38,113 bases of DNA from Acidobacteriota bacterium. Its GTDB lineage: Bacteria; Acidobacteriota; Polarisedimenticolia; Gp22-AA2. Numbering within the stretch: position 1 is the first letter of the stretch; the number at the start of each line of letters is the position of its first letter. Positions 15,283 through 31,273 of the stretch are shown piece by piece. The notes under the pieces are model-generated. The model was not told the DNA's origin. It ran no database searches and was given only the letters and a program-made list of their open reading frames with translations. The DNA is taken from assembly GCA_003223165.1 (NCBI GenBank), contig QHXZ01000033.1, positions 1-38,113 of the forward strand, given 5' to 3'. The translations under genes were made by a program, and so were the position numbers.

Positions 15283-16677
15283 ATGACAAGCTGGACTCCC
15301 GACCTCACCCGGCGGAGCGGCCCTCGCTACCGCGCCCTCGCCGACGCCCTGGCCGACGACGTGGCGGGCGGCCGTCTGGCGGCCGGGGCCCGCCTGCCGA
15401 CGCACCGCGACATGGCCGCCTCGCTGGGGGTCACGGTCGGGACCGTGAGCCGCGGCTACGCCGAGGCGCAGCGGCGCGGCCTGATTTCAGGGGAGGTCGG
15501 GCGCGGCACCTTCGTGCGGCGCGCCGACGACGATCGGATCGAATTCGGGATGCCGGCCATCAGGGAGGCGTCGCTCATCGACCTGAGCCTCAATTTCCCG
15601 ATCAGCGAGACGGAGGACCGCGAGGTCGCGAGGGCGCTCCTGGACCTGTCGCGGCGCAAAGACCTGGCGGGCCTCCTGAGCTATCTCCCGCACGCCGGGC
15701 TGCCAGCCCATCGCGACGCCGGGGCCGCCTGGGCCGCCCGCGCGGGTTTCGAGGCCCGGCCGGATCAGATCCTGATCACGAACGGCGCGCAGCAGGCGCT
15801 GTCGATCGCGCTCGCCGCCCTCGCCGCGCCGGGCGACCTGGTCCTCACCGAAGCGCTCACCTACCCGTTGTTCCGGACCCTCGCGGGCCTGCTGCACCTC
15901 AAGATCCAGGGGCTGCCGATGGACGACCAGGGGCTCAAGCCGGAGGCGTTCGAGGCGGCGTGCAGGGCGGGCGCTCCCCGGTTTCTCTACTGCATCCCGA
16001 CGATCCAGAACCCGACCGTCAGCATCATGCCGGAGGCCCGCCGTAGGAGGATCGCGGCCATCGCCCAGGCCCATGGCGTCACGATCCTCGAGGACGACAT
16101 CTACGGCATCCTGCCGGAGGAGCGTCCCGCCCCGATCGCGCTTCACGCTCCCGACCACGTCATCTACGTCACCAGCCTCTCGAAGACGCTCACGCCGGGG
16201 CTGCGGATCGGCTATCTCCTGGCTCCCCGCCGTCTGCTCGATCGCATCGTGCCGGCGATGGGAGCGACCACCTGGATGGCCTCGCCGCTCATGGCGGAGC
16301 TGGCGACGCGCTTCATCGGGGACGGGACCGCCGACCTCATCCTGAAGCGCAGGCGCAAGGAGACGGCGGCCCGGCTGGAGATGGCGGCGCGCATCCTGCG
16401 GCCGGCGCGGGCGGGGGCCCACCCGCACAGCTACCACTTCTGGCTGCCTCTCCCGGAGCCGTGGAAGAGCGACGAATTCGCCTCCCGCCTGCGCGAGCGG
16501 GGCGTGGCCGTCACCCCCGCGGAGGCGTTCCTGGCGGCCGCCGGAAAGCCACCGGCCGCGATTCGGATCTGCCTCGGCGCGGCGCGCACGAGGGACCAGC
16601 TCGAGCGCGGCCTGCGGATCATCGCGGACACCCTGGCGGGCGCCCCGGGCCCTCCCGGAGAGGCCGCCATCATCTGA
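15283..16677 (+). CDS. MocR-family regulator (GntR wHTH fused to PLP aminotransferase domain)
   Basis: A 464-aa fusion of an N-terminal GntR winged helix (about 10-80: LADALADDVAGGRLAAGARLPTHRDMAASLGVTVGTVSRGYAEA) and a class I aminotransferase-like domain. The PLP lysine is in YVTSLSKTLTPGLRIGYL, and the substrate/PLP contact IPTIQNPTVSIM is present. Such proteins are transcription factors that sense PLP or amino compounds and rarely act as enzymes. It is divergent from a cupin-GNAT-decarboxylase operon, its likely target. No ribosome binding site precedes the ATG, and a promoter just upstream suggests leaderless translation. Its 3' end overlaps the convergent membrane-protein gene by 8 nt. 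Confidence 0.92.
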   Translation: MTSWTPDLTRRSGPRYRALADALADDVAGGRLAAGARLPTHRDMAASLGVTVGTVSRGYAEAQRRGLISGEVGRGTFVRRADDDRIEFGMPAIREASLIDLSLNFPISETEDREVARALLDLSRRKDLAGLLSYLPHAGLPAHRDAGAAWAARAGFEARPDQILITNGAQQALSIALAALAAPGDLVLTEALTYPLFRTLAGLLHLKIQGLPMDDQGLKPEAFEAACRAGAPRFLYCIPTIQNPTVSIMPEARRRRIAAIAQAHGVTILEDDIYGILPEERPAPIALHAPDHVIYVTSLSKTLTPGLRIGYLLAPRRLLDRIVPAMGATTWMASPLMAELATRFIGDGTADLILKRRRKETAARLEMAARILRPARAGAHPHSYHFWLPLPEPWKSDEFASRLRERGVAVTPAEAFLAAAGKPPAAIRICLGAARTRDQLERGLRIIADTLAGAPGPPGEAAII

Positions 16678-17209
16678 CCTGCCGCGCCGCGAGCACCGGC
16701 GCGGCCCCCGCCAGAAGCCCGAGGACCATCCCGCCGAGACCGATGAGGCCGTAGAGAAGGCAGCCGACCGATCCGGCGAGGCCGGCGATGAGGCTGGCGC
16801 TGACCAGGGGGATGCCGTGCGCGTCGCGGGGCCGGGGCGCGAGGAGCCCGAGGGCGACGCCTCCCGCCGCGCCCGCCAGGATGCAGACCGAGGGCACCAG
16901 GAGGCAGCGGCCGGCGTCGCACAGGTGGCCGCCCGCCTGGGCGGCGAGGGGGACGGCGAGCGGGACGATGCCGGCGAGGAGGCCCGGGCGGACGCCGCGG
17001 CCGTACGCCTGGCCGCGCCACAGGCAGAAGGTCACCGCGGCCAGGAGGCACAGACCGCTGATCAGGATCCGGGCCGGGTCGGAGCAGCAGAAAAGCGCCA
17101 GGGCGACGATCGGCAGGAGCAGGAGGCTGCGGCCCACGGCCGCCTCGAGGCGGCCCGCCTCGTAGGCGCGTTTGGCGCGCCTGGCGAGGGCCCCGTCAGG
17201 GACGCTCAT
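16670..17209 (-). CDS. Six-TM Cys-containing membrane protein, putative anti-sigma
   Basis: A 179-aa protein. The start at 17209 (MSVPDGALARRAKRAYEAGRLE) overlaps the sigma gene by 14 nt; the ORF-track start at 17299 runs far into that gene. A short basic cytoplasmic N-terminus is followed by about six hydrophobic helices. Cysteines occur at FCCSD, GLC, TFCLW and in the loop HLCDAGRCLLVPSVC. Six-TM proteins encoded directly after an ECF sigma gene (for example NrsF/DUF1109) act as anti-sigma factors. The topology and overlap fit, but I cannot show homology. The cysteines could sense metal or redox state (inference). Confidence 0.75.
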   Translation of the reverse strand: MSVPDGALARRAKRAYEAGRLEAAVGRSLLLLPIVALALFCCSDPARILISGLCLLAAVTFCLWRGQAYGRGVRPGLLAGIVPLAVPLAAQAGGHLCDAGRCLLVPSVCILAGAAGGVALGLLAPRPRDAHGIPLVSASLIAGLAGSVGCLLYGLIGLGGMVLGLLAGAAPVLAARQVR

Positions 17210-17738
17210 CGGTCGTCCTCCAGACGGCGCGCAGGCGCCGGAGCGCTCGCTCGACCCTCTTCCTGAAGGTCGCCGCCGCCACCGCCGCACGCTCGCCACG
17301 GGCGAAGAGCCGCAACGTCTCGGCGTCCTCCGGGCGCAGCGCGCCCAGCGCCTCGCGCAGCATCGCCTCCAGGTCGCGCGTGAGCGCCGCCTCCTCGGGG
17401 GTCGGGTCCGGATGGCGCTGCGACTCGAAGGCGTCCTCGGGCGGCGGCTCCTCGCGCCGCCGCTGCCGCCGGCGTCGCGCCGTCCTGATCTCGAAGGCCG
17501 CGATGCCCAGCGCCCAGGCGAGGGCGGGACGCGACGGCTCGAACTCCGCCGCGCGGCGGAAGATCTTCAGCAAGGCCTCCTGGGCCGCGTCCTCGCACTC
17601 CTCCGGCCGCAGGTGCCGGGACGTGAAGCGGCGCAGAAAGGGCCAGAGCGACTCGAAGAGCGGATGGAACGCTTCGCGGTCGCCATCGGCGAGCCGCTCC
17701 ATCAGCCGTTGCAGGTCCGGGGGTGGCAGACGCTCCAT
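17196..17738 (-). CDS. ECF-like RNA polymerase sigma factor
   Basis: A 180-aa sigma-70 family protein with region 2 at about residues 18-90 (DREAFHPLFESLWPFLRRF, then ECEDAAQEALLKIFRRAAEF, the core-binding and -10 reading part) and a region 4 helix-turn-helix at about 130-175 (LRPEDAETLRLFARGE, then TFRKRVERALRRLRAVW). The linker is rich in Arg and Glu/Pro. The length is normal for ECF factors. It sits between a small Cys-rich peptide gene upstream and a six-TM protein with a 14-nt overlap downstream. This layout suggests a signal peptide or target, sigma, anti-sigma unit. A hairpin precedes the gene. The inducing signal is unknown. Confidence 0.88.
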   Translation of the reverse strand: MERLPPPDLQRLMERLADGDREAFHPLFESLWPFLRRFTSRHLRPEECEDAAQEALLKIFRRAAEFEPSRPALAWALGIAAFEIRTARRRRQRRREEPPPEDAFESQRHPDPTPEEAALTRDLEAMLREALGALRPEDAETLRLFARGERAAVAAATFRKRVERALRRLRAVWRTTDERP

Positions 17739-17791: not shown

Positions 17792-17914
17792 TCAGGGACA
17801 GCAAAGCGGGCAGCAGCAACAGGCCGCTTCGGCCGCCTTGCCGGCCGCCAGGGCGACCGCGGGCAGCGCCATCAGGACGGCGACGGGAACGAGACGATTC
17901 ACGAACCGCATCAT
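17792..17914 (-). CDS. 40-aa secreted cysteine-cluster peptide
   Basis: Found by reading the tail of a longer ORF in the same frame (17792-18841); the track does not list it separately. A very strong GAGGAGGTGA (17919-17928, minus strand) precedes ATG 17914. The product has a textbook signal peptide (MMRFVNRL, a hydrophobic core, then ALA), leaving a mature peptide of about 16 residues that ends ACCCCPLCCP, with six cysteines in nine residues. This could bind soft metals such as Cu, Zn, Cd or Hg, or form a dense disulfide knot; neither is shown. It is first in an operon with an ECF sigma factor and a six-TM Cys-containing protein, followed by a strong hairpin. I know of no named family. Confidence 0.75.
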   Translation of the reverse strand: MMRFVNRLVPVAVLMALPAVALAAGKAAEAACCCCPLCCP

Positions 17915-18052: not shown

Positions 18053-21000
18053 ATGAAACGTCTCGTTCTCGCGATCCTGATCGGTCTGGCCGTCCTCACG
18101 ATCGCCTCCGCGGATCCTATCTCGAAGGAAAGGATCCCCGAGCCGTTGCGCCCCTGGATCGACTGGGTGCTGCTCGGCCACGAGGAGGAGCTCTGCCCGT
18201 TCTTCCAGGGGGACGCCGAGCGGCGCGAGTGCGCCTGGCCCTCGCGCCTGGTCCTCGACCTGGGGGATCGCGGCGGCCGGTTCACGCAGCAGTGGATCGT
18301 GGAACATGACCAGTGGGTGCCGCTCCCGGGAGACGCGAAGAACTGGCCCCAGGAAGTGCGCGTCGACGGACGCCCGGCCGGCGTCACGGCGCAGCAGGGC
18401 GCGCCGACGGTCCGGCTGCCGGCGGGGCGGCATGCGCTCGGCGGCGCGTTCGAATGGGACTCCCTCCCCTCGCTCCTGCAGGTCCCCGTCAGGACCGGCC
18501 TCGTCGGCCTGGCGATCCACGGTCGCGCCGTGCCCTTCGCGTCCCGCGACGAGCAGGGGCGCCTCTGGCTGCAGAAGACTCCGGGCGGCGAGCAGGCGGA
18601 GGATCGCCTCGAGATGACGGTGAGCCGGAAGGTCACCGACGACATCCCGCTCGTCCTGACCACCCGCCTCGATCTCCAGGTTTCGGGGAAGAGCCGCGAG
18701 GTCGTCCTGGGAAGGCCGCTCGCGCCCGGTTTCATCGCCATGTCTCTCTCCAGCCCGTTGCCGGCCCGGCTCGATCCGGACGGCGGCCTGCGCGTCCAGG
18801 CGCGGCCGGGGCGCTTCGTGATCGAGGTCAAGGCGCGGCACGATGGGCCGGTCGCTTCACTGCAACCGCCTCCCGCGGGCGGGAACTGGCCTCCCCAGGA
18901 GGTCTGGGTCTTCGAGGCGCGGCCCGCCTTGAGGCTCATCCAGGTCGAGGGTGTTCAGGCCGTCGACCCGCAACAGACCACGCTGCCGGAAGATTGGAAA
19001 GGACTGCCGACGTATCTGATGCTGCCCGGCAAGACCATGACCCTCACGGAGAAACGGCGCGGCGATTCCGACCCCGCGCCGGATCAGCTGTCCCTGCAGC
19101 GCACCATCTGGCTGGACTTCGACGGCGGCGGCTACACGATCCACGACGCGATCGCCGGCACCATGCGGCGCGGCTGGAGGCTGGAGATGCCGCCGCCGGC
19201 GCAGCTCGGCCGCGTGGCCATCGACGGTCGGGATCAATTCATCACCCGCCTCGGCCCCGGCCGCAGCGCGGGAGTCGAGCTGCGGCAGGAGAGCGTCCAT
19301 CTCGAGGCCGACAGCCGCCTCGAGCGCGGCGCCTCGGTGCTGCCCGCGGTCGCCTGGGACCACGACTTCACGCAGGTGACCGCCTGGCTGTACCTCCCGC
19401 CCGCCTGGCGGCTGTTCAGCGCCACCGGCGTGGACGACGTCTCGGCGACCTGGATCTCCTCCTGGACGCTTCTCGACCTGTTCCTGGTCTTGATCGGCGC
19501 CATGTCGGTGGCCCGTCTGTGGGGCCGCCGCTGGGGAGCGCTGGCCCTCGTGGCCTTCGGCCTGACCTGGATCGAGCCGGGCGCGCCGGCCTGGTCGCCG
19601 CTCGCCGTCCTGGCCTTCGAGGCGCTGCGGCGCGCGCTCCCCGACGGAAGGATCCGCAAGGTCGTGACCCTGGCCCACCGTCTCGCCCTGGTGGTCCTCG
19701 TCTGTGTCGCCGCCCCCTTCCTGGTCCAGCAGGTGCGCGCGGCGATCTACCCGGCCCTGGAGCAGACGCTCTACGCCGGAGAGAGCGTGGTGGGGTTCGC
19801 CAGGGGCGGCAGGGCCTTTCCGTACTCCCAGCAGGAGGCCGAGGGGGGCGGGGTCGCGGGGACAGGCATGGAGGACAAAGACGAGATCAGCCGCTCGAAG
19901 ATGCAGGCGTTGGGGTACATCGGCTCGAACGTGCCGGCCGGGAAGTTGCCGGAGTCGAGGCCCTCGGCGCAGATCGCCGCGAAGCTCTCCCTCTACGCGC
20001 CCGACCCGAAGGCGGTGGTGCAGACGGGGCCCGGTCTCCCGGACTGGACGTGGAGAACGGCGACCCTGGAATGGCGCGGGCCGGTCACGAGCGCGCAGCG
20101 CCTGCGCCTCATCCTGATTCCACCGACGCTGAACCGCCTGCTGAATCTCCTGCGCGTCGCGCTCATAGCGCTTCTGGCGCTCTGCCTGTTCGGCTTCGGC
20201 GCGCTATCCTGGCCCGTCGCCTTCCTCGGGCGATGGGGTTTAAGGCGCGGCTTCGTCCCGGCGCTCCTCGCCGGCGCGCTCGCCGCCGCCGCGACGCGCC
20301 CGTCTCTCGCGGCGGAGATCCCGCCGCCCGACCTGTTGAACGATCTGCGCGCCCGCCTTCTGTCGCCACCCGGCTGCCGGCCGGACTGCGCCTCCAGCCC
20401 GCGGCTCGCCCTTGACGCCAGGCCGGCGTTCCTCAGCGCCCGCCTCGAGATGGACGTCGCGGCGGCGACCGCGGTGCCCCTCCCCGGCGGCGCCGACCAG
20501 TGGCTCCCCGAACGCGTGCTGGTCGACGGCGACGCCGCGGCGGGGCTCGTCCGCACTCCCGACGGGCGCCTCTGGCTGCGGCTGGCGCCCGGCACCCACC
20601 AGGTCCTGATGGAGGGAGCGCTTCCCGACCGCGACACGGTGCAGATTCCCCTGCCGCTCAAGCCGCACCGGGTGACGGCGCGCGCCGAGGGCTGGCGCAT
20701 CGAAGGGCTGCACGAGGACGGCCTGGCCGAGGACTCGTTGCAGCTGGTGCAGCTGCGGGGCCGCCCGCGCGGGCCGGCCGGCAGCCTGGAGCCCGGCGCG
20801 CTGCCACCCTTCGTGCGCATCGAGCGCGAGCTGACGCTCGGCCTCACGTGGCAGGTGGAGACCCGCGTGGTGCGCGTGACGCCTCCCGGCGCGGCGGTCC
20901 TCCTCGAAGTCCCGCTCCTGCCGGGCGAGTCGGTGACCACGCCCGACGTCCGCGTGCAGGGTGGACGGGCCCTGGCGAGCCTGGGCCCGCAGGTCTCGCA

Positions 21001-22162
21001 GGCCGGATGGACGTCGACGCTGGCGCAGGCCGAGGCGATCAAGCTGCGCGCGCCCGGCGCGGTCTCCTGGGTCGAAGTCTGGCTGGTGGCGATCTCTCCG
21101 ATCTGGCACGCCGAGGCACAGGGGATCCCGCTCATCAACCGCCCCGACCAGCCCGGCGCCAGGATGCTGGAGTGGCGCCCGTGGCCCGGGGAGACGGTCT
21201 CCCTGGCCGTGAGCCGGCCGGAGGGATTGCCCGGCCAGACCCTGACCATCGACCAAAGCTCCCTGGCGTTCTCACCCGGGTTGCGCGCCACCGACGCCAC
21301 GCTCGACTTCACCCTGCGCAGCAGCCGCGGCGGGCAGCACATGATCACGCTTCCCGACGACGTCGAGCTGCAGTCGGTGAAGATCAACCAGGCCGTCCTG
21401 CCGATCCGGCAGGAGGGGCGCGTGGTCACCCTGCCCGTCGTCCCCGGGATGCAGCAGATCGCTCTTTCCTGGCGGCAGGGCGACGGCATCCGGGTCCTCT
21501 TCAGGACGTCCGAGGTGCGCCTCGGGGCGGCCAGCGTGAATGCGCGCACCGCGATCGCCATGCCGGCGGACCGCTGGACATTGTTCCTGGGCGGACCACG
21601 CCTCGGCCCGGCGGTGCTCTTCTGGGGCCTCCTGACCGTCAGCGGGCTCGCGTCGCTGGCGCTCGGGCGCGTCCGTCTCACGCCGCTGCGCGGGCGGGAC
21701 TGGTTCCTCCTCAGCATGGGGCTGACGCAGGCGCCTCTCTGGATCGCCATCGCCATCGCCGGCTGGCTCTTCGCCCTCGGCTGGCGCAGGCAGAAAGGGG
21801 CGGCGGCGTCCAACCTCGGCTTCAACCTCTTCCAGGTCCTGATCGTCGCGGCGACCGCCGCGGCTCTCTCGGGGCTCTTCTGGTCGATCACGGACGGCCT
21901 GCTCGGGCTCCCCGAGATGCAGGTCTCCGGCAACGGTTCGTCCGCGCGGGACCTGCGCTGGTACCTCGATCGGGCGGGGGACACCCTGCCCCGCGCCTGG
22001 GTGGTCTCGCTGCCGCTGTACTTCTATCGGCTCGCGATGCTGGCCTGGGCGCTCTGGCTCGCCCAGGCGCTTCTGCGCTGGGTGAAGTGGGGCTGGATCT
22101 GCTTCACCGAGGGAGGCCTCTGGCGGCCGCGCGCCAGGAAGGCAGCGGTGCCCCGGCCCTGA
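18053..22162 (+). CDS. Large multi-domain membrane protein, unknown function, internally duplicated
   Basis: A 1369-aa protein with a signal peptide (1-20), a long extracytoplasmic beta-rich region (about 21-470), TM segments near 474-562, another pair near 700-757, a second extracytoplasmic region (about 758-1180) and four C-terminal TMs (about 1185-1348). The two outside regions appear related: SRLVLDLGDRGGRF, VPLPGDAKNWPQEVRVDG and VRLPAGRHAL in the first match SPRLALDARPAF, VPLPGGADQWLPERVLVDG and LRLAPGTHQVL in the second, each preceded by a Cys pair (CPFFQGDAERREC; CRPDC). I recall similar conserved hypothetical proteins but no function. It is divergent from the Cys-peptide/sigma operon. 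A start at ATG 18053 behind GGGGGATCC is acceptable. Confidence 0.85.
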   Translation: MKRLVLAILIGLAVLTIASADPISKERIPEPLRPWIDWVLLGHEEELCPFFQGDAERRECAWPSRLVLDLGDRGGRFTQQWIVEHDQWVPLPGDAKNWPQEVRVDGRPAGVTAQQGAPTVRLPAGRHALGGAFEWDSLPSLLQVPVRTGLVGLAIHGRAVPFASRDEQGRLWLQKTPGGEQAEDRLEMTVSRKVTDDIPLVLTTRLDLQVSGKSREVVLGRPLAPGFIAMSLSSPLPARLDPDGGLRVQARPGRFVIEVKARHDGPVASLQPPPAGGNWPPQEVWVFEARPALRLIQVEGVQAVDPQQTTLPEDWKGLPTYLMLPGKTMTLTEKRRGDSDPAPDQLSLQRTIWLDFDGGGYTIHDAIAGTMRRGWRLEMPPPAQLGRVAIDGRDQFITRLGPGRSAGVELRQESVHLEADSRLERGASVLPAVAWDHDFTQVTAWLYLPPAWRLFSATGVDDVSATWISSWTLLDLFLVLIGAMSVARLWGRRWGALALVAFGLTWIEPGAPAWSPLAVLAFEALRRALPDGRIRKVVTLAHRLALVVLVCVAAPFLVQQVRAAIYPALEQTLYAGESVVGFARGGRAFPYSQQEAEGGGVAGTGMEDKDEISRSKMQALGYIGSNVPAGKLPESRPSAQIAAKLSLYAPDPKAVVQTGPGLPDWTWRTATLEWRGPVTSAQRLRLILIPPTLNRLLNLLRVALIALLALCLFGFGALSWPVAFLGRWGLRRGFVPALLAGALAAAATRPSLAAEIPPPDLLNDLRARLLSPPGCRPDCASSPRLALDARPAFLSARLEMDVAAATAVPLPGGADQWLPERVLVDGDAAAGLVRTPDGRLWLRLAPGTHQVLMEGALPDRDTVQIPLPLKPHRVTARAEGWRIEGLHEDGLAEDSLQLVQLRGRPRGPAGSLEPGALPPFVRIERELTLGLTWQVETRVVRVTPPGAAVLLEVPLLPGESVTTPDVRVQGGRALASLGPQVSQAGWTSTLAQAEAIKLRAPGAVSWVEVWLVAISPIWHAEAQGIPLINRPDQPGARMLEWRPWPGETVSLAVSRPEGLPGQTLTIDQSSLAFSPGLRATDATLDFTLRSSRGGQHMITLPDDVELQSVKINQAVLPIRQEGRVVTLPVVPGMQQIALSWRQGDGIRVLFRTSEVRLGAASVNARTAIAMPADRWTLFLGGPRLGPAVLFWGLLTVSGLASLALGRVRLTPLRGRDWFLLSMGLTQAPLWIAIAIAGWLFALGWRRQKGAAASNLGFNLFQVLIVAATAAALSGLFWSITDGLLGLPEMQVSGNGSSARDLRWYLDRAGDTLPRAWVVSLPLYFYRLAMLAWALWLAQALLRWVKWGWICFTEGGLWRPRARKAAVPRP

Positions 22163-23384: not shown

Positions 23385-25400
23385 ATGTCTCAGTGGCTGA
23401 AGGCGGCACTGGCTGGAACCCTGGTCGCAGGCGTCTGCCTGGGCGCCGCGGCCTGGTCCGGCGCCAGGGAACTGACGGGCCGCCGCGAGGAGCTGCAACG
23501 TGACGCCCGGGTCGTCGCCCGCCTCGTCTCGACGCGGATACAGGGCGGCCTCGAGAAGCACATGACCGCCATGCGGCAGATGGCGAACTTCTACGTCAGC
23601 AGCCGCAAGGTCGGCGAGAAACAGTTCCTCACCTACGCCGCGAACACCCTCAAGATGAGCCCGGCCTGCCTCAACATCGCCTATGTCGATCGATCCCTGC
23701 GGATCCTGAGGAGCTACCCTCCCGACGCCGACCGTTGGAGCATGGTCTTCGACGCGCGCACCCACCAGCCCGGCTACGAGACGCTGGTCCGGGCCAACCG
23801 GGCCCTCAGGCCGATGCTTTCGCCGCCGATGCGGCTGTTCGGCGGGACCTGGGGATTCGTCCTGGTGGAGCCGGTCGTCGCCAACGGCCGACTGCTCGGG
23901 ACGCTCGTCGGGGCCTGCCGCGGCCAGGAGTACTTCGATTCGATGGTCCTGCCCGAGGTGACCGAGCGTTACGAGCAGGTCCTGCTCGACTCCGGCACCG
24001 GGATCTTCGCCAGCGACGTGGGCGGCTCCTCCGACCTCTCCGTCCCTGCCGTCTCGGAGTCCTTCGACTTCGGAGGCGCCGACTGGGAGGTGCGTATCAA
24101 GCCGCAGGATCATGTGGTGCACGCCCGCCTGGCGGCAGGCCGCACCCTCTTCTGGGCCATGGCCTGCCTCTTCTCGCTGGCGTTCGGCGCCCTGGCGTCC
24201 GCGGCGACCCTGTGGGCCATCGGCATGTCCGCCCGCCTGCAGTCCCAGGGCGCGGCCCTCGTGGAGGTCAGGACCCGCCTCGACGGCGCCAAGGAGCAGC
24301 TCCTCCACGCGGAGAGGATGTCCGCCCTCGGAGAGCTGGTGGCCGGCGTGGCGCACGAGATCAACAACCCTCTCGCCGGGATCGTGGGGTACACCCAGCT
24401 GCTGATGAAGCGCAGGTTCTCGGCCCCGGTGCAGAAGAAGCTGGAGACGATCGCGGCGGAAGGCGGCCGGATGGCGAAGATCGTCAGGAACCTCCTGACC
24501 TTCGCGCGCAAGCACGCCTCCGAGAAGAGCCTCACCGACCTGAACAGCGTCGTGCGCAGCACCCTCGAGATCAAGGCCTATCACCTGCGGGCCAATCAGA
24601 TCAAGGTCGTCGAGGAGCTCGATCCCGGCCTGCCGGCCACCCTGCTGGACTTCCACCAGATGCAGCAGGTCCTGCTCAACCTGCTCAACAACGCCGAGCA
24701 GGCGATGCTCGAGGCGCGCCACGGGCACACAATCCGGCTCACGACGCGCATCGTGGGGGACCGCATCCAGATGCGCGTCGCGGACGACGGCCCCGGCATC
24801 CCGCCGGAGATCCGCGAGCGCGTCCTGGAGCCGTTCTTCACCACGAAGAAAGAGGGACACGGGACCGGGCTCGGCCTGTCGCTCTGCAACGGCATCGTCC
24901 AGGAGCACGGCGGCAGGCTGAGCGTCGAGAGCCCGCCGGGCGAGGGCGCCACCTTCATCATCGACCTGCCGATCCGGCAGGAGGCCGTGGAGGCCGATGA
25001 GGCGGCGAAGCCGTTCCCGGCGCCCGCGATCGATCCCCTGAAAGTGCTGGTGATCGACGATGAGACGAGCATGCAGGATTTCCTGGTGGACCTGCTCGAG
25101 CTGGGCGGACACGCTGTCGACACCGCGTCCGACGTGCCCGAGGCGGTGGCGAAGATCGCGGCCGGCGACCACGACCTGATCATCACCGACCTGAAGATGC
25201 CGGGCGGCACGGGGCGCGACGTCTACGCCGCGGTCCTCGAGTCCCGGCCCCACCTGGCACGGCGCATCGTCTTCACCACCGGGCAGATCGCCGGCGACGA
25301 GATGGTCGACTTCCTGAAGATGACCGGCAACGAGCTGGTCCTGAAGCCCTGCAACATCGACGAGATGGAGAGCGCCATCGCGCGCGCCGCCAGAAACTAG
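23385..25400 (+). CDS. Hybrid sensor histidine kinase/response regulator
   Basis: A 671-aa membrane protein. ATG 23385 is preferred (GGAG seven bases upstream; a TM helix begins at once). Domains: TM1 (about 5-22); an extracytoplasmic sensor of about 220 residues, probably Cache/PAS-like; TM2 (about 250-275); a dimerisation helix with the phospho-accepting His in GVAHEINNPL (about His324); an ATPase domain with N box NNAEQAM, G1 DDGPGIPPE and G2 GTGLGLSLCNG; a linker; and a C-terminal receiver with acidic DDE, phospho-acceptor Asp in ITDLKMPG (about Asp602) and Lys in LKPCN. It may act as a phosphorelay; no HPt or output regulator lies next to it. Its stop shares CTAG with the convergent treT-like gene. 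Signal unknown. Confidence 0.94.
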   Translation: MSQWLKAALAGTLVAGVCLGAAAWSGARELTGRREELQRDARVVARLVSTRIQGGLEKHMTAMRQMANFYVSSRKVGEKQFLTYAANTLKMSPACLNIAYVDRSLRILRSYPPDADRWSMVFDARTHQPGYETLVRANRALRPMLSPPMRLFGGTWGFVLVEPVVANGRLLGTLVGACRGQEYFDSMVLPEVTERYEQVLLDSGTGIFASDVGGSSDLSVPAVSESFDFGGADWEVRIKPQDHVVHARLAAGRTLFWAMACLFSLAFGALASAATLWAIGMSARLQSQGAALVEVRTRLDGAKEQLLHAERMSALGELVAGVAHEINNPLAGIVGYTQLLMKRRFSAPVQKKLETIAAEGGRMAKIVRNLLTFARKHASEKSLTDLNSVVRSTLEIKAYHLRANQIKVVEELDPGLPATLLDFHQMQQVLLNLLNNAEQAMLEARHGHTIRLTTRIVGDRIQMRVADDGPGIPPEIRERVLEPFFTTKKEGHGTGLGLSLCNGIVQEHGGRLSVESPPGEGATFIIDLPIRQEAVEADEAAKPFPAPAIDPLKVLVIDDETSMQDFLVDLLELGGHAVDTASDVPEAVAKIAAGDHDLIITDLKMPGGTGRDVYAAVLESRPHLARRIVFTTGQIAGDEMVDFLKMTGNELVLKPCNIDEMESAIARAARN

Positions 25401-26650
25401 CGCGTTCCCTTGTGCACGGCCTCGCCGGCGAGGTGGATGAAATCGCGCTCTCCGCTCTCGAGAAACGCGAACAGCAGAAGGTAATCCCGCAGCTGCCTCG
25501 TGAGCAGGAAGTGTTGCCTCACTCCCTCCCGTCCGTTCGCCCCGAGCCATGCCGCGTAGGCAGGCTCGTTCAAGAGGTGCCTGAGCCAGTAGGCGGTGCC
25601 CTCGATCGAATGCGTCAGCACCCCCGAGCACTTGTGGCTGATCTGGAGGGGCAGGCCGCCGACGGCCCCCGCGATCACCGGCTTCCCCTTCCAGAGCGCC
25701 TCGGTCACGGTGAGCCCGAACCCTTCCCTCAACGACTTTTGCAAGATGATTGTCGACGCCCGCTGGATGGCGTTGATCTCCAGATGGCTCGTCGGCGGCA
25801 AGCAGAGCACCAGGATGTCCTCGTCGCCTTTCGTGCGCTCCTGGACCTCGGCGAGCACCTGGGCTCCCTCGGGGTCATCATCCGCCGGCCCGCCGACGAG
25901 CAGGAGGCGCGCCGAGGCCGATGCGTTCGCCATCCGGAAGGCCTCGATCACTCCCGCGGGATCCTTCAGGCGGTCGAAGCGCGATACCTGGGTCACGATT
26001 GGTTTGTCGGTCGGTATGCGGAGGCGCTCCAGGATCGCCCCGGTCTCCTCGGGCGTGAGCTCCCGGTTCTTGTCGGAGAGAGGATCGATCGAGGGCGCGA
26101 TCAGCATCTGCGGGACCTCGAGGCTGCGCGCGAACGACGGCGCGGAGAAGACGCATGCGTCGTATTGCTTGACGTAGGCCCGGAAGAACTCCCAGACCTC
26201 CGGGTCGGGGCGGGAGAGGTCGATGTGGCAGCGCCAGATCCACTTGTTGCCGAGCGCCTTCCTCTCCCTCACGAGGCCCGCGGGCTGCGGGTCGTGGATG
26301 AAGACGATCCCGGCCTCCAGGCTCAGCGCGGCGAGGTTCTCCTGGAGCGTCACCTCGTAGACCTCGTAGTCCCTGGGTGTCACCGTCGCGGCGGCTCCGT
26401 GCAGCGCGTTGTGGAAGCGCTTGGTGGCCGCGTGGAAGTCCTCTCCTCCCTTGATCACCTCCCACCGGGCATCCACTCCAAGCTGCCGCAGGAGCGGGAC
26501 CATCCGGCTCAGGATCTCCGCCACGCCGCCCCCGACCGCCGTCGCATTCACGTTCAGGACCGATTTCCCCTCGAGCCGACGTCCGAGCAGGTGGAGCTCC
26601 TCGACGGTGTCCGCCCCGACCAAGTCGCGATAATCTTCAAGAGTCGGCAC
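25397..26650 (-). CDS. treT: Trehalose glycosyltransferring synthase (TreT-like GT4)
   Basis: A 417-aa cytoplasmic glycosyltransferase resembling TreT, which makes trehalose from a nucleotide-activated glucose and glucose, reversibly. Family-like segments: the N-terminal SVLNVNATAVGGGVAEILSRMVPLL, the glycogen-phosphorylase/GT4-type RFDRLKDPAGVIEAF, and EGFGLTVTEALWKGKPVIAGAVGG, which holds the conserved nucleotide-sugar site. It starts at GTG 26650 behind GAGGAG and overlaps the DUF5752 gene by 14 nt. Last in a four-gene operon with OtsA and OtsB, it gives the cell a second trehalose route. A trehalose phosphorylase activity is an alternative. The stop shares CTAG with the kinase gene. Confidence 0.85.
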   Translation of the reverse strand: MPTLEDYRDLVGADTVEELHLLGRRLEGKSVLNVNATAVGGGVAEILSRMVPLLRQLGVDARWEVIKGGEDFHAATKRFHNALHGAAATVTPRDYEVYEVTLQENLAALSLEAGIVFIHDPQPAGLVRERKALGNKWIWRCHIDLSRPDPEVWEFFRAYVKQYDACVFSAPSFARSLEVPQMLIAPSIDPLSDKNRELTPEETGAILERLRIPTDKPIVTQVSRFDRLKDPAGVIEAFRMANASASARLLLVGGPADDDPEGAQVLAEVQERTKGDEDILVLCLPPTSHLEINAIQRASTIILQKSLREGFGLTVTEALWKGKPVIAGAVGGLPLQISHKCSGVLTHSIEGTAYWLRHLLNEPAYAAWLGANGREGVRQHFLLTRQLRDYLLLFAFLESGERDFIHLAGEAVHKGTR

Positions 26651-27317
26651 GCGAGATCTCCTCGAGGCGCCGCTCCACCATCCCGACGAGCGCCGAGCGC
26701 AGGCCTTCCAGGGTGTGGGTGTAGGGATCCAGGCCCGACACCCTCCTGGCGAGCGCCTTCTCGTCGAGCTGGGTGACGAGCCAGGTCGCGAAGTCGTTGA
26801 GACCCAAGGGGGGGCTCAGCAGGGCCTCGAAAAGGTGCAGGTAGAGGCTCGAGATGCCGACCCGCCTCAGGCACCCCGCGAAGCCCGCGAGGTCCTGGGC
26901 TTCGTACCACGTGGGGAGGGAGAACCGTATCGCCTCCATGAAGTGGAACTCCTTGCCCTCGGGGACGTCACGGCCCTTCGCGTGCTGCTCGAGATGCGCC
27001 CCGATGGCCCCGATGAGAGCCCGCTTCAGCTCCTCCAGGGAGCTGAAGCGCAGCGTGTCGATCGCGGCGAGCCGTTCCGCCAGCCTCTCGTCCACCAGGA
27101 CATTGCCGACCCAGTAGGCGAAATCGTTCGGAGGCTCGGGCACGAGGTACTGGTGCTGCCGAAGGAAGCGGTGCGTGTGCTGGTAGATGACCGTATCGGG
27201 CGCCGCCTCGAGATGGTCCAGCAGCTCCCTCAGGTTTCTGGCCTTGAGCCCGGTCAGGCGCGTCAGGCAGAGGCGGGTGAAGAAGCGAAACGGTTCCCGC
27301 GCGCGCACGAGCTTCAT
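26637..27317 (-). CDS. DUF5752 family protein
   Basis: A 226-aa, mostly helical protein with no signal peptide or TM. Segments such as FRFFTRLCLTRLTGLKARNLRELL, YQHTHRFLRQHQY, PNDFAYWVGNVLVDERLAERLA and a second similar unit LGLNDFATWLVTQLDEKALARRV suggest two related halves. I assign it to DUF5752, a family I recall from trehalose/TreT clusters; its biochemical role is unknown. It is coupled on both sides: ATGA overlap with otsB upstream and a 14-nt overlap with treT downstream. A regulatory or scaffolding role in trehalose or glucan metabolism is inference. Confidence 0.8.
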   Translation of the reverse strand: MKLVRAREPFRFFTRLCLTRLTGLKARNLRELLDHLEAAPDTVIYQHTHRFLRQHQYLVPEPPNDFAYWVGNVLVDERLAERLAAIDTLRFSSLEELKRALIGAIGAHLEQHAKGRDVPEGKEFHFMEAIRFSLPTWYEAQDLAGFAGCLRRVGISSLYLHLFEALLSPPLGLNDFATWLVTQLDEKALARRVSGLDPYTHTLEGLRSALVGMVERRLEEISRADS

Positions 27318-28099
27318 ACCGCCTCATCCAGGGCGGCCCCGGCCTCGCGCAGGAACCTCGCGACCTGGGCCTGGGACCCGAGGTAGTAGTCGGCCTTGGA
27401 TGCCCGCGGGCGGCCGATCCGGATGGCGACTCCCTTCCCTCCAAGGGCGGCGAAGACGTCCTCGTCGGTCGTGTCGTCGCCGAGCGCGATCGGGAACGGA
27501 TCCCGAAGGCACCGCATCAGGTACCTCGACGCGGCGCCTTTGTGCCACGGCACCTCCGGGACGAGCTCCCAGACCTTGCGCCCGGCGCCCCAGCGGATCG
27601 GCCGGGCGGAGGTCTCGATCTGCAGGCGGGCACGAAGCTTCCTCAGGGGACCCAGGGCGGCGCGCGGCACGCGCCGGTAATGCACGCTGAGGGTCAGCTC
27701 CTTGTTCTCGAGGACCGCCCCGGGAACGCGCGCCAGGTCTCCTGCGATCCTGACCGCCGCGCCTTGCATGACCGGCTTCAGCGAAAGGGCCTCGACGTGG
27801 CGGAAGGATATTCCCGGCCCCTCGATCTCCAGCCCGTGGTTCCCGCAGTAATAGAGCGCGGGGAGGCCGATCCGCGATCGAAGGTCCGAGAGCGAGCGGC
27901 CGCTGAGGATGGCCACTCCGGCGCGCGGCCGGCCCTGGAGCGAGGAGAGGAGCGACCGGATCGCCTCGGGTAGGACGGCCTCGTCGTGCCTGCCGGCCAG
28001 GGGGGCCAGGGTTCCGTCGAAGTCGAGCAGAAAGAGGACCCTCCTTTGAGTCGCGATCAGGCTTCGGACGCGCGGCCATTCGGGCCACAGGTTGCGCAC
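27314..28099 (-). CDS. otsB: Trehalose-6-phosphate phosphatase
   Basis: A 261-aa HAD-superfamily enzyme that removes phosphate from trehalose 6-phosphate. HAD motif I is LFLLDFDGTLAP, with the nucleophile and acid/base Asp; the motif II region is AILSGRSLSDL; YYCGNHGLEIEG is typical of the OtsB cap; HKGAASRYLM supplies the motif III Lys; and the motif IV region is GDDTTDEDVF. Start is GTG 28099, 4 nt after the otsA stop, with GAGTGAGGG serving as ribosome binding site. The stop overlaps the DUF5752 gene as ATGA. It works directly with the upstream OtsA. Confidence 0.93.
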   Translation of the reverse strand: MRNLWPEWPRVRSLIATQRRVLFLLDFDGTLAPLAGRHDEAVLPEAIRSLLSSLQGRPRAGVAILSGRSLSDLRSRIGLPALYYCGNHGLEIEGPGISFRHVEALSLKPVMQGAAVRIAGDLARVPGAVLENKELTLSVHYRRVPRAALGPLRKLRARLQIETSARPIRWGAGRKVWELVPEVPWHKGAASRYLMRCLRDPFPIALGDDTTDEDVFAALGGKGVAIRIGRPRASKADYYLGSQAQVARFLREAGAALDEAV

Positions 28100-28103
28100 G
28101 CCC

Positions 28104-30005
28104 TCACTCGTTCCCGGCGGCCCTCTGGTCGAGCCTGACCCGCGACAGCGCCTCGACCAGGTTGCCCGCCCAGCGGTAGATGTTGTGCTCCCGTACCGTC
28201 GCCCGCATCTTCGTCATGCGAGAGGCCTTCTCCTCCTGATCCATCTGCAGGGCCTGGCGCATGGCTTCGGTCATCTCCTCCACATCGTAGGGATTGACGA
28301 TCAAGGCGTCCCTCAGCTCCCGCGAGGCCCCGGTGAAACGGCTCAGGATCAGGACGCCGCCGTTGTCGTCGCGCGAGGCGACGAACTCCTTGGCGACGAG
28401 GTTCATCCCGTCGTGCAGGGACGTGACCATGCAGAAATCGGCGTGCCGGTAGAAGGGCAGGATCTCCCGATGGCTGTGGTGCCGCTTCAGGAACAGGATG
28501 GGCCTCCACACCCCGTCCTTGAATCTCCCGTTGATCCGCTCCGCCTCGGACTCCACCTCCGCCAGGAAGTCGTGGTAACGCTTGATGTGGGTGCGGCTGG
28601 GAGCCCCGACCTGGACGAAGGTCATCTCCTTGCGGTAGGCGGGGTATTTCTCCAGGAAGCGCTCGATGGCCCGGAAGCGCTCCAGGACGCCCTTGGTGTA
28701 ATCCATCCTCTCGACGCCGACGCCCAGGTGCCGCCCGGTCATCCCCAGCCCCTTGAGGAACGCCTCTCGATCCGGCTCCGGGGGGTGCTCGGAGCGGACG
28801 TCCTGAAAGGCATTGGGGAAGGCGACGCTGATCGGGAAGGGCGCGACGACCGTCGCGTGGCCCCCTCGCTGGACCTCGAACCGCTCCCAGTCCACGCGGG
28901 ATTCCAGCGTGCGGTCGACGGTCTCGAGGAAGTTGTTGCAGTGGAACTGGGTATGAAACCCGATGAGGTCCGCTCCCAGCATCCCGAGGAGGAGCTCCCG
29001 CCTCCAGGGGCAGATTCCGAAGGCCTCCGGGTTCGGCCAGGGAATGTGCCAGAAAATCGCGATCCTCGCGTCGGGCCGCCTCCGCTTGAGGAGAGCGGGC
29101 AGCAGGGCCAGGTGGTAATCCTGGATCAGGACGCACGGCTCCCCGAGCCGCTCCAGTTCGCTCAGCGTGGCCTCTGCGAACGTCCGGTTGGCCTGTTCGT
29201 AGTGGGCCCAGTCCTCCGGCCTGAACAGGGGCCTGGTGTGGGCGATGTGGCAGAGGGGCCAGAGCCCCTCGTTCGCAAACCCATAGTAGTAGCCCTCCTC
29301 CTCGTCCTTCGCGAGGGCCACCCTCTTGAGCGTGTAGAGAGGATCCTCGGGGGGGACCTTGATCCGGTTCCCTTCCTCGACGACGTCCCAATCGGCATCC
29401 CCGGCACCGTGCGCGATCCAGGTCCCGCCGCTGGCCCTCAGGACCGGGTCGAGCGCCGTGACCAGGCCGCCGGCCGGTACGATGCACTCCAGCCCGAGAC
29501 CGCGGCGGACGTGCATGTAGGGCTCCCGGTTGGACACCACGATGAGCGGCTTCCCCTGGAGCCTCTGGCGCACGTGCTCGCTCAGCCGGTCGGGCGTCCA
29601 CTGGGCTTCCGCCGCCTGCCTGAGCCTGGCTTCCTCCTCGGCCGCGGCCCTGGCGCGGGAGAGCTGCCTGGAGAACCTCTCGACCTCCCGTGCCAGCGGG
29701 TCGAAGAGTCGGACATTCGGAAGATCCGGGCGCACGTGCTCCTCGCCCGTGCGCAGTTGTCTCATCCATAGCGCCATCTGGGCGATGGGACCCGCGATGC
29801 TCCAGCGCAGGACCAGGAGCGTCACGAAGACGATCGCGACCGCCTCGGCGAGAGCCTTGAAGAAAGCCGCGCGCCATGCCGTCCAGTCGGGGGCCGCGAT
29901 CGCGGCCGGGCCCTGTCCGCCTCCCTCTTGAAAATGGGCCGCCAGGAAGGCCGCCGCCAGGGCCACGACGGCCAGCGAGATGACGAGCCTGCGCGTGATT
30001 CGCAT
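28104..30005 (-). CDS. otsA: Membrane-anchored trehalose-6-phosphate synthase with HAMP-like region
   Basis: A 633-aa protein. An N-terminal helix (about 7-23) and a second TM (about 48-68) flank a short loop; then follow a HAMP-like segment (SIAGPIAQMALWMRQLRTGEE to LAREVERFSRQL), a coiled coil rich in Ala/Glu/Arg (about 118-145) and a full GT20 domain: PLIVVSNREPY, GGLVTALDPVL, IQDYHLALLP, FWHIPWPNPE, DLIGFHTQFH, RMDYTKGVLERF and DGMNLVAKEF. It makes trehalose 6-phosphate from UDP- or ADP-glucose and glucose 6-phosphate. The usual enzyme is soluble and about 470 aa, so the anchor is an added module. An in-frame TGA lies just upstream of the ATG; no ribosome binding site is evident, and tandem hairpins precede it. 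First gene of the trehalose operon. Confidence 0.93.
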   Translation of the reverse strand: MRITRRLVISLAVVALAAAFLAAHFQEGGGQGPAAIAAPDWTAWRAAFFKALAEAVAIVFVTLLVLRWSIAGPIAQMALWMRQLRTGEEHVRPDLPNVRLFDPLAREVERFSRQLSRARAAAEEEARLRQAAEAQWTPDRLSEHVRQRLQGKPLIVVSNREPYMHVRRGLGLECIVPAGGLVTALDPVLRASGGTWIAHGAGDADWDVVEEGNRIKVPPEDPLYTLKRVALAKDEEEGYYYGFANEGLWPLCHIAHTRPLFRPEDWAHYEQANRTFAEATLSELERLGEPCVLIQDYHLALLPALLKRRRPDARIAIFWHIPWPNPEAFGICPWRRELLLGMLGADLIGFHTQFHCNNFLETVDRTLESRVDWERFEVQRGGHATVVAPFPISVAFPNAFQDVRSEHPPEPDREAFLKGLGMTGRHLGVGVERMDYTKGVLERFRAIERFLEKYPAYRKEMTFVQVGAPSRTHIKRYHDFLAEVESEAERINGRFKDGVWRPILFLKRHHSHREILPFYRHADFCMVTSLHDGMNLVAKEFVASRDDNGGVLILSRFTGASRELRDALIVNPYDVEEMTEAMRQALQMDQEEKASRMTKMRATVREHNIYRWAGNLVEALSRVRLDQRAAGNE

Positions 30006-30022
30006 GGAGGGAAGCCCCCGCT

Positions 30023-30068
30023 GTCACGGGCGGGCCCCGGAATCTCGGGGGCCGGGCCCGCCCGTGAC
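30023..30068 (-). terminator. 15-bp perfect hairpin upstream of otsA
   Basis: GTCACGGGCGGGCCC and GGGCCCGCCCGTGAC are perfect arms with a 16-nt GC-rich loop. It is the second of two tandem hairpins after the beta-barrel gene and ends 18 nt before otsA. Terminator, or attenuator for the trehalose operon. No T-tract. Confidence 0.55.
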
Positions 30069-30072
30069 GCTT

Positions 30073-30101
30073 GCGCCGGATCGTTAGGGGCGATCCGGCG
30101 C
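30073..30101 (-). terminator. 11-bp perfect hairpin after the beta-barrel gene
   Basis: GCGCCGGATCG and CGATCCGGCGC form a perfect stem with a 7-nt loop, 12 nt after the stop at 30114. First of the tandem pair; best read as terminator of the outer-membrane protein transcript. Confidence 0.55.
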
Positions 30102-30113
30102 CAGGCACCGATC

Positions 30114-30608
30114 TCAGAACCGGACGCCGACGCCCAGCACCGCCTCGGAGTCATCGGCCAGGACGACCTTCATCTGGCCGTAGGGACGTACGTCCCCCTT
30201 CCTGGCGCCGATGCCGAGCACCAGGTTGACGCCAGGGTCGGTATCGTGGGCCGTTCCGGGAGAGGTCCTGTCCCTGAAGATCAGGGTCGGCCCGGCGCCG
30301 GCCCAGAACGTGTACGGCTCACCGCTGGGGAAGTCGTAGTGGAAATCGAAGCTCACCGCCGTCCGATCGCCCGAGTCGGCGGCGAAGGCGTGCTCGAGGT
30401 TGGGGTTCCCGAACCAGCGGTTCGTGGTCCCGACGCCGAACAGCGCCTCGGCGCCCAGGAAGGGCTCGTCGACATCGCTGTAGGTACCACCCCGCACGCC
30501 GAAATCGGTCTTCGCGTGGCCGGGTGCGATCGAAAGGAGACCGGTGAGAGCGCCGGCGCTTGCGAGCAACAGACCACGGACAAAGCGCGACCTGCGAGTC
30601 TTCGTCAT
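30114..30608 (-). CDS. Small outer-membrane beta-barrel-like protein
   Basis: A 164-aa exported protein. The start at 30608 (MTKTRRSRF) is chosen for AAGGAGGT just upstream, instead of the ORF-track start at 30647. The signal peptide (about 1-33) ends near GHA. The mature part has alternating strands (FGVRGGTYSD, EALFGVG, AVSFDFHYDF, YTFWAGAGPTLIF, NLVLGIGA, PYGQMKVVL) and ends LGVGVRF, with the terminal Phe typical of barrel proteins. The size suggests an eight-stranded barrel. Function unknown. It follows the double-BON lipoprotein gene on the same strand, so an envelope-stress context is plausible. Confidence 0.78.
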   Translation of the reverse strand: MTKTRRSRFVRGLLLASAGALTGLLSIAPGHAKTDFGVRGGTYSDVDEPFLGAEALFGVGTTNRWFGNPNLEHAFAADSGDRTAVSFDFHYDFPSGEPYTFWAGAGPTLIFRDRTSPGTAHDTDPGVNLVLGIGARKGDVRPYGQMKVVLADDSEAVLGVGVRF

Positions 30609-30660
30609 CCTGACCTCCTTGCGGCAGGCAGACACTGCGCCGCTCAAAAGGTGTGATCCC

Positions 30661-30676
30661 TCCCGCAGACGCGGGA
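30661..30676 (-). terminator. Small hairpin after the BON gene
   Basis: TCCCGC and GCGGGA form a 6-bp stem with a 4-nt loop, 12 nt after the BON-protein stop. Weak terminator candidate. Confidence 0.35.
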
Positions 30677-30688
30677 AGCTCGTTCGTA

Positions 30689-31273
30689 TCAGCCGCGGAC
30701 CTGCAGCCGGTTCACGACATCCTTGACGCCGTCGGCGTCACGGGCGACCCGGGTGGCGAGCTGGCGCTCGGCCTCCGAGGCGACCTCGCCGGTCAGCGTC
30801 ACCGTGCCGCGCTCGGTGTGGACGGTGATGTGGGAGCCCTTCACGCCCCGCTGGAAGGCCAGCGCCATCTTGACCGTGGCGGTCGTCGAGGCATCGTGCA
30901 CCGCTTCGCCGAAGCTCTTCTCCGCCTCGTCCGGTCCCTCCCCGCTGTCCGAGGCCACCAGCAGATCGTCACGGACCTCCGTGACTCCGTCGGCGTTCCG
31001 GGCGATCTCGACGGCGAGATCACGGTGGATGTCGCTCGGGACGGATCCGTGCAGCGTCACGACGCCGTCACGGGTGTCGACGTTGATGCGGAACGGGTTG
31101 AGGTGCCGGCTGAACAGGTAGGTCGTCTTGATGCGCATCGTGATCGACGCGTCGTGAATCGCGTCGCCCGCGGTGCGCCGCCCGACACTCTGGGACGAAG
31201 AGAGCGAGCAACCCGAAGAGAGCGCCGCGACGACCAGAAGTGTCATGATCGTGTGAGCGATTCGGCGATCCAT
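30689..31273 (-). CDS. Double-BON-domain envelope protein (OsmY-like, probable lipoprotein)
   Basis: A 194-aa protein with an N-terminal hydrophobic signal ending LSSGC, a lipobox-like site. Two BON domains follow: about 35-105 (DAIHDASITMRIKTTYL, INVDTRDGVVTLHGSVPS, ARNADGVTEVRDDL) and about 115-193 (EAVHDASTTATVKMALAF, ITVHTERGTVTLTGEVAS, ARDADGVKDVVNRLQV). BON domains bind membrane surfaces or phospholipids and are typical of osmotic and envelope stress proteins such as OsmY. The start has AAGGAGG five bases upstream. The nearby trehalose operon would fit an osmotic-stress theme, but shared control is not shown. Confidence 0.9.
   Translation of the reverse strand: MDRRIAHTIMTLLVVAALSSGCSLSSSQSVGRRTAGDAIHDASITMRIKTTYLFSRHLNPFRINVDTRDGVVTLHGSVPSDIHRDLAVEIARNADGVTEVRDDLLVASDSGEGPDEAEKSFGEAVHDASTTATVKMALAFQRGVKGSHITVHTERGTVTLTGEVASEAERQLATRVARDADGVKDVVNRLQVRG

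Follow-up and report, generated by a model that had tools for sequence, protein, structure and literature searches.

The window, that is, the whole 38,113-nucleotide stretch of Acidobacteriota DNA that we analysed, carries on its forward strand an open reading frame (ORF; 18053-22162) that translates into a two-half membrane protein of 1369 amino acids. The strong bias of its GC content by codon position (0.73/0.53/0.92) and the presence of full-length homologs in many phyla mark this ORF as a genuine gene; the reading frame, motifs and cysteine pairs reported in the initial annotation were all recovered.

Just upstream, on the opposite strand, is a 40-aa ORF (17792-17914) that starts like a signal peptide and has a CCCCPLCCP motif in its C-terminal part (MMRFVNRLVPVAVLMALPAVALAAGKAAEAACCCCPLCCP), followed by a divergently oriented ECF sigma factor gene (17196-17738, reverse strand; PF04542) and an overlapping gene for a 209-aa protein (16670-17299, reverse strand) that has several hydrophobic stretches and no Pfam match. 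A MocR-like regulator (15283-16677, forward strand), the score of which exceeds the NCBIfam cut-off for EhuR (ectoine utilization), lies beyond. Directly 3' of the focal gene is a Phosphoesterase-family protein (PF04185; 22360-23268, forward strand), and a trehalose-type cluster on the reverse strand (25397-31273) comprises a TreT-like glycosyltransferase, a DUF5752 protein, a trehalose phosphatase and a GT20 synthase, and then a BON-domain protein.

The focal protein matches no Pfam, NCBIfam or PADLOC family; the sole PHROG row (E 0.86 over 40 residues, to a family of unknown function) is not significant, and neither is any match in PDB sequence searches. Scanning 12 homologs against Pfam returned scattered weak matches only. 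The earlier statement that the protein has no recognisable family of known function therefore stands: the family is real and widespread, but unnamed.

Predicted architecture and topology

All features described here are on the forward strand. Hydropathy across 92 homologs places a signal peptide or N-terminal anchor, MKRLVLAILIGLAVLTIASA, at aa 1-21 (18053-18115). This is followed by an all-beta N-terminal periplasmic arm (aa 22-465, 18116-19447), transmembrane (TM) helices 1-4 (aa 473-565, 19469-19747), a disordered linker with pLDDT below 50 (aa 570-645, 19760-19987) that varies between 32 and 124 aa in relatives, and a conserved beta-hairpin (DPxAVVQTGPGxPxWxW) with TM5 (aa 646-712, 19988-20188). 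The second half is headed by the signal-peptide-like TM6 (aa 734-752, 20252-20308) and repeats the order: an all-beta C-terminal periplasmic arm (aa 755-1185, 20315-21607), TM7-10 (aa 1189-1284, 21617-21904) and a conserved hairpin (LPEMQVSGNGSS..LRWYLDR) with TM11 (aa 1285-1352, 21905-22108). The arms are delimited by AlphaFold2 and by their mutual similarity, TM1-4, TM6 and TM7-10 by hydropathy and AlphaFold2 (with loop charges for TM1-4 and TM7-10), and the hairpins with TM5 and TM11 by AlphaFold2 and conservation.

As the initial annotation had observed, both arms start with a cysteine pair: C48 and C60 (18194-18232) are 97.8% and C775 and C779 (20375-20389) 100% conserved among 92 sequences, and both pairs are likely to form disulfides. 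Likewise present are the VPLPG...W-P-E-V/RVLVDG-type motifs, as WVPLPGDAKNWPQEVRVDG in the N arm (approximately aa 88-106) and AVPLPGGADQWLPERVLVDG in the C arm (approximately aa 807-826), in each case followed by L-x-P/A-G-x-H. W, P, G, R and Cys account for most of the residues conserved in at least 97% of the 92 homologs; conserved polar residues are R192, D196, R215/E216, E409, R411 and N1163.

When the halves were modelled separately by AlphaFold2 from 75-sequence alignments (pLDDT 86.0 for the N half and 88.5 for the C half), the same build was predicted for both: an all-beta arm leads into four helices, after which a periplasmic beta-hairpin precedes the fifth. The predicted topology agrees with the positive-inside rule with the arms outside: across the 92 homologs the mean number of K+R is 1.45, 2.28, 1.80, 1.93, 3.22 and 3.09 in the loops assigned to the inside, and 0.55 and 0.01 in those assigned to the outside.

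In the models, ten TM helices form two parallel five-helix bundles. Together these could constitute a pseudo-dimeric channel through which a lipid, glycan or small molecule passes, with the arms receiving or passing on the substrate. Such a transporter or permease is the main rival to the scaffold or holdase function that we favour below; the TM regions are conserved to the same degree as the arms, and duplicated halves are common in transporters. However, the TM helices contain few charged residues, no transporter-family match was obtained and no ATPase or other energising partner is conserved next to the gene, and we consider this function unlikely.

Duplication of the two halves

The initial annotation suggested that the protein arose through ancient duplication and fusion, a proposal that is supported by the collinearity of the arms, the similar predicted architecture of the halves and the behaviour of the relatives. 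Profile self-alignment gave a significant internal match: when 12-homolog profiles were compared by hhalign, the N arm (22-465) aligned end to end with the C arm (750-1180) with a probability of 98-99% (E 2.6e-14 to 7.8e-19, 376-408 columns), with C60 opposite C779, while ten column-shuffles and one reversal each scored at most 0.5%. Arm profiles built from disjoint species sets still matched at 96%, and profiles enlarged to 75 sequences per half aligned over 489 columns, reaching into the TM region (97%).

The signal is unevenly distributed. In piecewise hhalign comparisons with 92 sequences, the first arm domain scored 98%, the last 67% and the middle 9%; the strongest duplicated unit is thus the first beta module of the N arm (D1; aa 60-130, 18230-18442), the partner of which is the first beta module of the C arm (aa 779-852, 20387-20608). 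The C arm contains a third copy of this smaller module close to its end (aa 1097-1141, 21341-21475; C1 versus C3 90%, N1 versus C3 88%). As for the TM blocks that were said to follow each arm, they are duplicated, and in register, in the predicted architecture, but when compared on their own with 92 sequences they score at the hhalign control level (0.5-0.8%, never above 0.8%). Duplication of the membrane part is therefore a claim that rests on the predicted architecture rather than on sequence scores.

Could the halves instead be alike by convergence, as recurrent beta-sandwich motifs? The unmatched TM blocks would fit this explanation, as would single-sequence BLASTP between the halves, which is weak in several of 12 proteins (E 0.06 in L029 and 0.11 in L030). 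Against it stand the collinear full-span profile match with its clean shuffle and reversal controls, its persistence between disjoint species, and the fact that both halves run in the same order from the arm through four helices and the hairpin to the fifth helix. The arm profile comparisons have already largely refuted convergence, which we regard as highly improbable.

The 91 full-length relatives examined were selected for an ORF length of 1200 aa or more, and every locus searched had such an ORF; all 91 have both halves, which supports a duplication that predates the spread of the family. A search of 297 Acidobacteriota genomes with the C-half profile yielded no convincing one-half protein. 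Two candidates were rejected: L016/P0002 is a weak TM match to an unrelated polytopic membrane protein, glycosyltransferase-like by eye, and G051/L134 has one short module in common with the family (42%) and is not a half.

Distribution and gene neighbourhood

Full-length relatives with 36-69% identity were found in Acidobacteriota, Pseudomonadota, Myxococcota, Thermodesulfobacteriota, Nitrospirota and Elusimicrobiota. A first scan of contigs with a single-protein query gave no match; an alignment-based query did find relatives, with at least 541 confirmed matches, 80 of which were kept (Gammaproteobacteria, Myxococcota, Thermodesulfobacteriota, Nitrospirota, Elusimicrobiota and others). The hosts are diderm environmental bacteria, with cultured carriers including Methylotuvimicrobium buryatense, Nannocystis, Zobellella and Azoarcus sp. 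KH32C, in which a full-length homolog resides on plasmid pAZKH. The distribution is patchy: 14 of 396 Acidobacteriota genomes gave matches, one of the 14 being a chance TM match, and within the window's own family a homolog is present in two of eight genomes. One genome (G012) has its homolog split across two overlapping frames (L024, 5312-8167 and 7842-9431), reflecting either a frameshift or an assembly error, and another (G054) has two family copies (L025 and L031), one of them cut by the contig end.

In a quickly built family tree, many rows of which were flagged for compositional bias, Acidobacteriota sequences fall in three places: with Elusimicrobiota, with Azoarcus, and with Nitrospirota and Syntrophobacteraceae. 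Because they are split in this way, the scatter points to horizontal transfer or deep loss. A phage or defence origin was considered and rejected: in addition to the PADLOC and PHROG results above, no homolog was found in the viral contigs searched.

Analysis of the neighbourhood of homologs, based on gene calls at approximately 90 loci, revealed no neighbour shared across clades and no conserved partner gene; synteny is restricted to the genus level, and an operon or partner gene was discarded as an explanation on these grounds. Examples of such local context, named by eye from sequence, are an Mpl-like ligase upstream of the homolog in methanotrophs and trp genes (trpE/trpG-like) upstream of it in Methylobacter.

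These data also bear on whether the protein is an envelope sensor or regulator, its arms sensing envelope state or a ligand and its TM bundles signalling to a cytoplasmic partner. Periplasmic arms combined with several TM helices would suit such a role, and in the window the divergently encoded ECF sigma factor lies upstream. However, the sigma factor does not recur among the neighbours of homologs, and a cytoplasmic signalling domain is present in 0 of 92 homologs; a search for fusion partners in long homologs uncovered low-complexity tails only. A sensor seems improbable.

Fold likeness and possible function

In Foldseek comparisons with the PDB (probability 1.00 for both halves), the N half is closest to yeast Ost1 (E 8e-7) and the C half to human RPN1 (E 6e-10, 517 columns); both are ribophorin I (PF04597), an accessory subunit of the eukaryotic oligosaccharyltransferase. 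Ribophorin I has tandem luminal beta domains on a membrane anchor, and the focal protein may have a comparable, M1-N-like set in the periplasm. The alignments have global TM-scores of 0.13-0.16 and an rmsd of 16-30 Å, generic multi-beta viral proteins in BFVD score up to E 5e-7, and the likeness could partly reflect a generic string of beta-sandwiches. Ribophorin I has a single TM helix and is not duplicated, neither the window protein (P0001) nor 12 homologs match PF04597 at E ≤ 1, and PDB profile searches matched no RPN1 chain.

Next best among PDB folds are the N-terminal beta domains of M1 aminopeptidases (leukotriene A4 hydrolase, ERAP2, APN), together with an M61 peptidase, which match the local fold over approximately 150-180 residues at an rmsd of 5-7 Å in the best cases (probability 1.00). 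Unlike these enzymes, the focal family has a multi-TM anchor and no catalytic domain: HEXXH occurs in 0 of 92 sequences, and Peptidase_M1 matched neither the window protein nor 12 homologs. In the enzymes themselves the M1-peptidase N-domains do not carry the zinc site. We take the likeness to ribophorin I and the M1 N-domain (M1-N) as a fold-level lead, not as homology; searching the literature for a ribophorin/M1 likeness or for ribophorin homologs in bacteria brought up nothing relevant.

CreD (PF06123) was compared because in it, too, a multi-helix TM block comes after a periplasmic beta domain. It is a single unit of about one third of the focal length, membership of the focal family in it was rejected since profile comparison stayed at background (hhalign 0.1-0.5%), and no CreD was found in the window's genome. 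Separately, five Acidobacteriota loci (L118-L122) have an HMM match to the C-terminal TM part of CreD only, with a profile alignment to CreD over 389 columns for L118-L121, and represent a divergent CreD-like group.

Could the family be a bacterial counterpart of ribophorin I, that is, a fused double OST1-type luminal module that would keep exported proteins at the inner membrane while they mature or are glycosylated? We regard this as very unlikely. The bacterial family has no link to bacterial STT3: a match above cut-off is present in three of eight carriers and absent both from the window's genome (85% complete) and from a 100% complete carrier (G003) with a 68% identical homolog, which led us to reject a tie to bacterial N-glycosylation. 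In 60 genomes checked for co-occurrence, neither STT3 nor exosortase tracks the focal gene.

A broader alternative is a polysaccharide-handling or glycan-binding inner-membrane protein, the arms of which would be carbohydrate-binding sandwiches serving surface-glycan export or modification. The tryptophan-rich conserved motifs of the all-beta arms speak for it, as does the occurrence in diderm environmental hosts; the lack of a carbohydrate-binding module match, of a conserved glycosyltransferase neighbour and of any exosortase linkage speaks against it, and we deem it as improbable as a sensor.

Because there is no M1 catalytic signature and no partner gene, and because two paired beta arms stand at the membrane surface, our best-supported guess, which we offer tentatively, is a non-enzymatic, stand-alone scaffold or holdase of the inner membrane and periplasm with pseudo-twofold symmetry. 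An ancient in-frame duplication would have produced a two-half inner-membrane protein. In each half, an M1-N/ribophorin-I-like beta-sandwich arm with a likely disulfide at its start would sit on five TM helices, the last of which is preceded by a periplasmic beta-hairpin. As the halves share their orientation, the protein would be a built-in dimer, the paired periplasmic arms of which may clasp a client on the periplasmic side of the inner membrane, with the conserved membrane-surface hairpins forming part of the contact site. The client might be a polypeptide, nascent or exported, or else a glycan carrier or another membrane protein acting as partner. Our data show that the gene is real, that its arms are duplicated and that neither an M1 catalytic signature nor a co-inherited neighbouring gene is present; the fold and topology are predicted, and client binding, like the disulfides, is inferred.

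A scaffold is the best reading of the arm duplication, the matching halves, the positive-inside topology, the Ost1/RPN1 and M1-N fold matches, the absence of HEXXH, the W/P/G/R/Cys conservation and the lack of a conserved neighbour. Against it count the low ribophorin TM-scores, the E-values that generic viral beta proteins reach, the lack of a link to bacterial N-glycosylation and the TM blocks without mutual sequence homology, and the conserved polar residues would be compatible with catalysis or transport.

For a protein of nearly 1400 residues that is kept in at least six diderm phyla, the lack of any Pfam or NCBIfam model marks a clear gap in our understanding of the cell envelope. The delimitation of its halves, topology and conserved hairpins makes knockouts and structure determination straightforward, and the ribophorin-I/M1-N likeness provides a concrete, testable hypothesis. 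Were the family truly a ribophorin I counterpart, the eukaryotic OST1 fold would have had bacterial membrane relatives.
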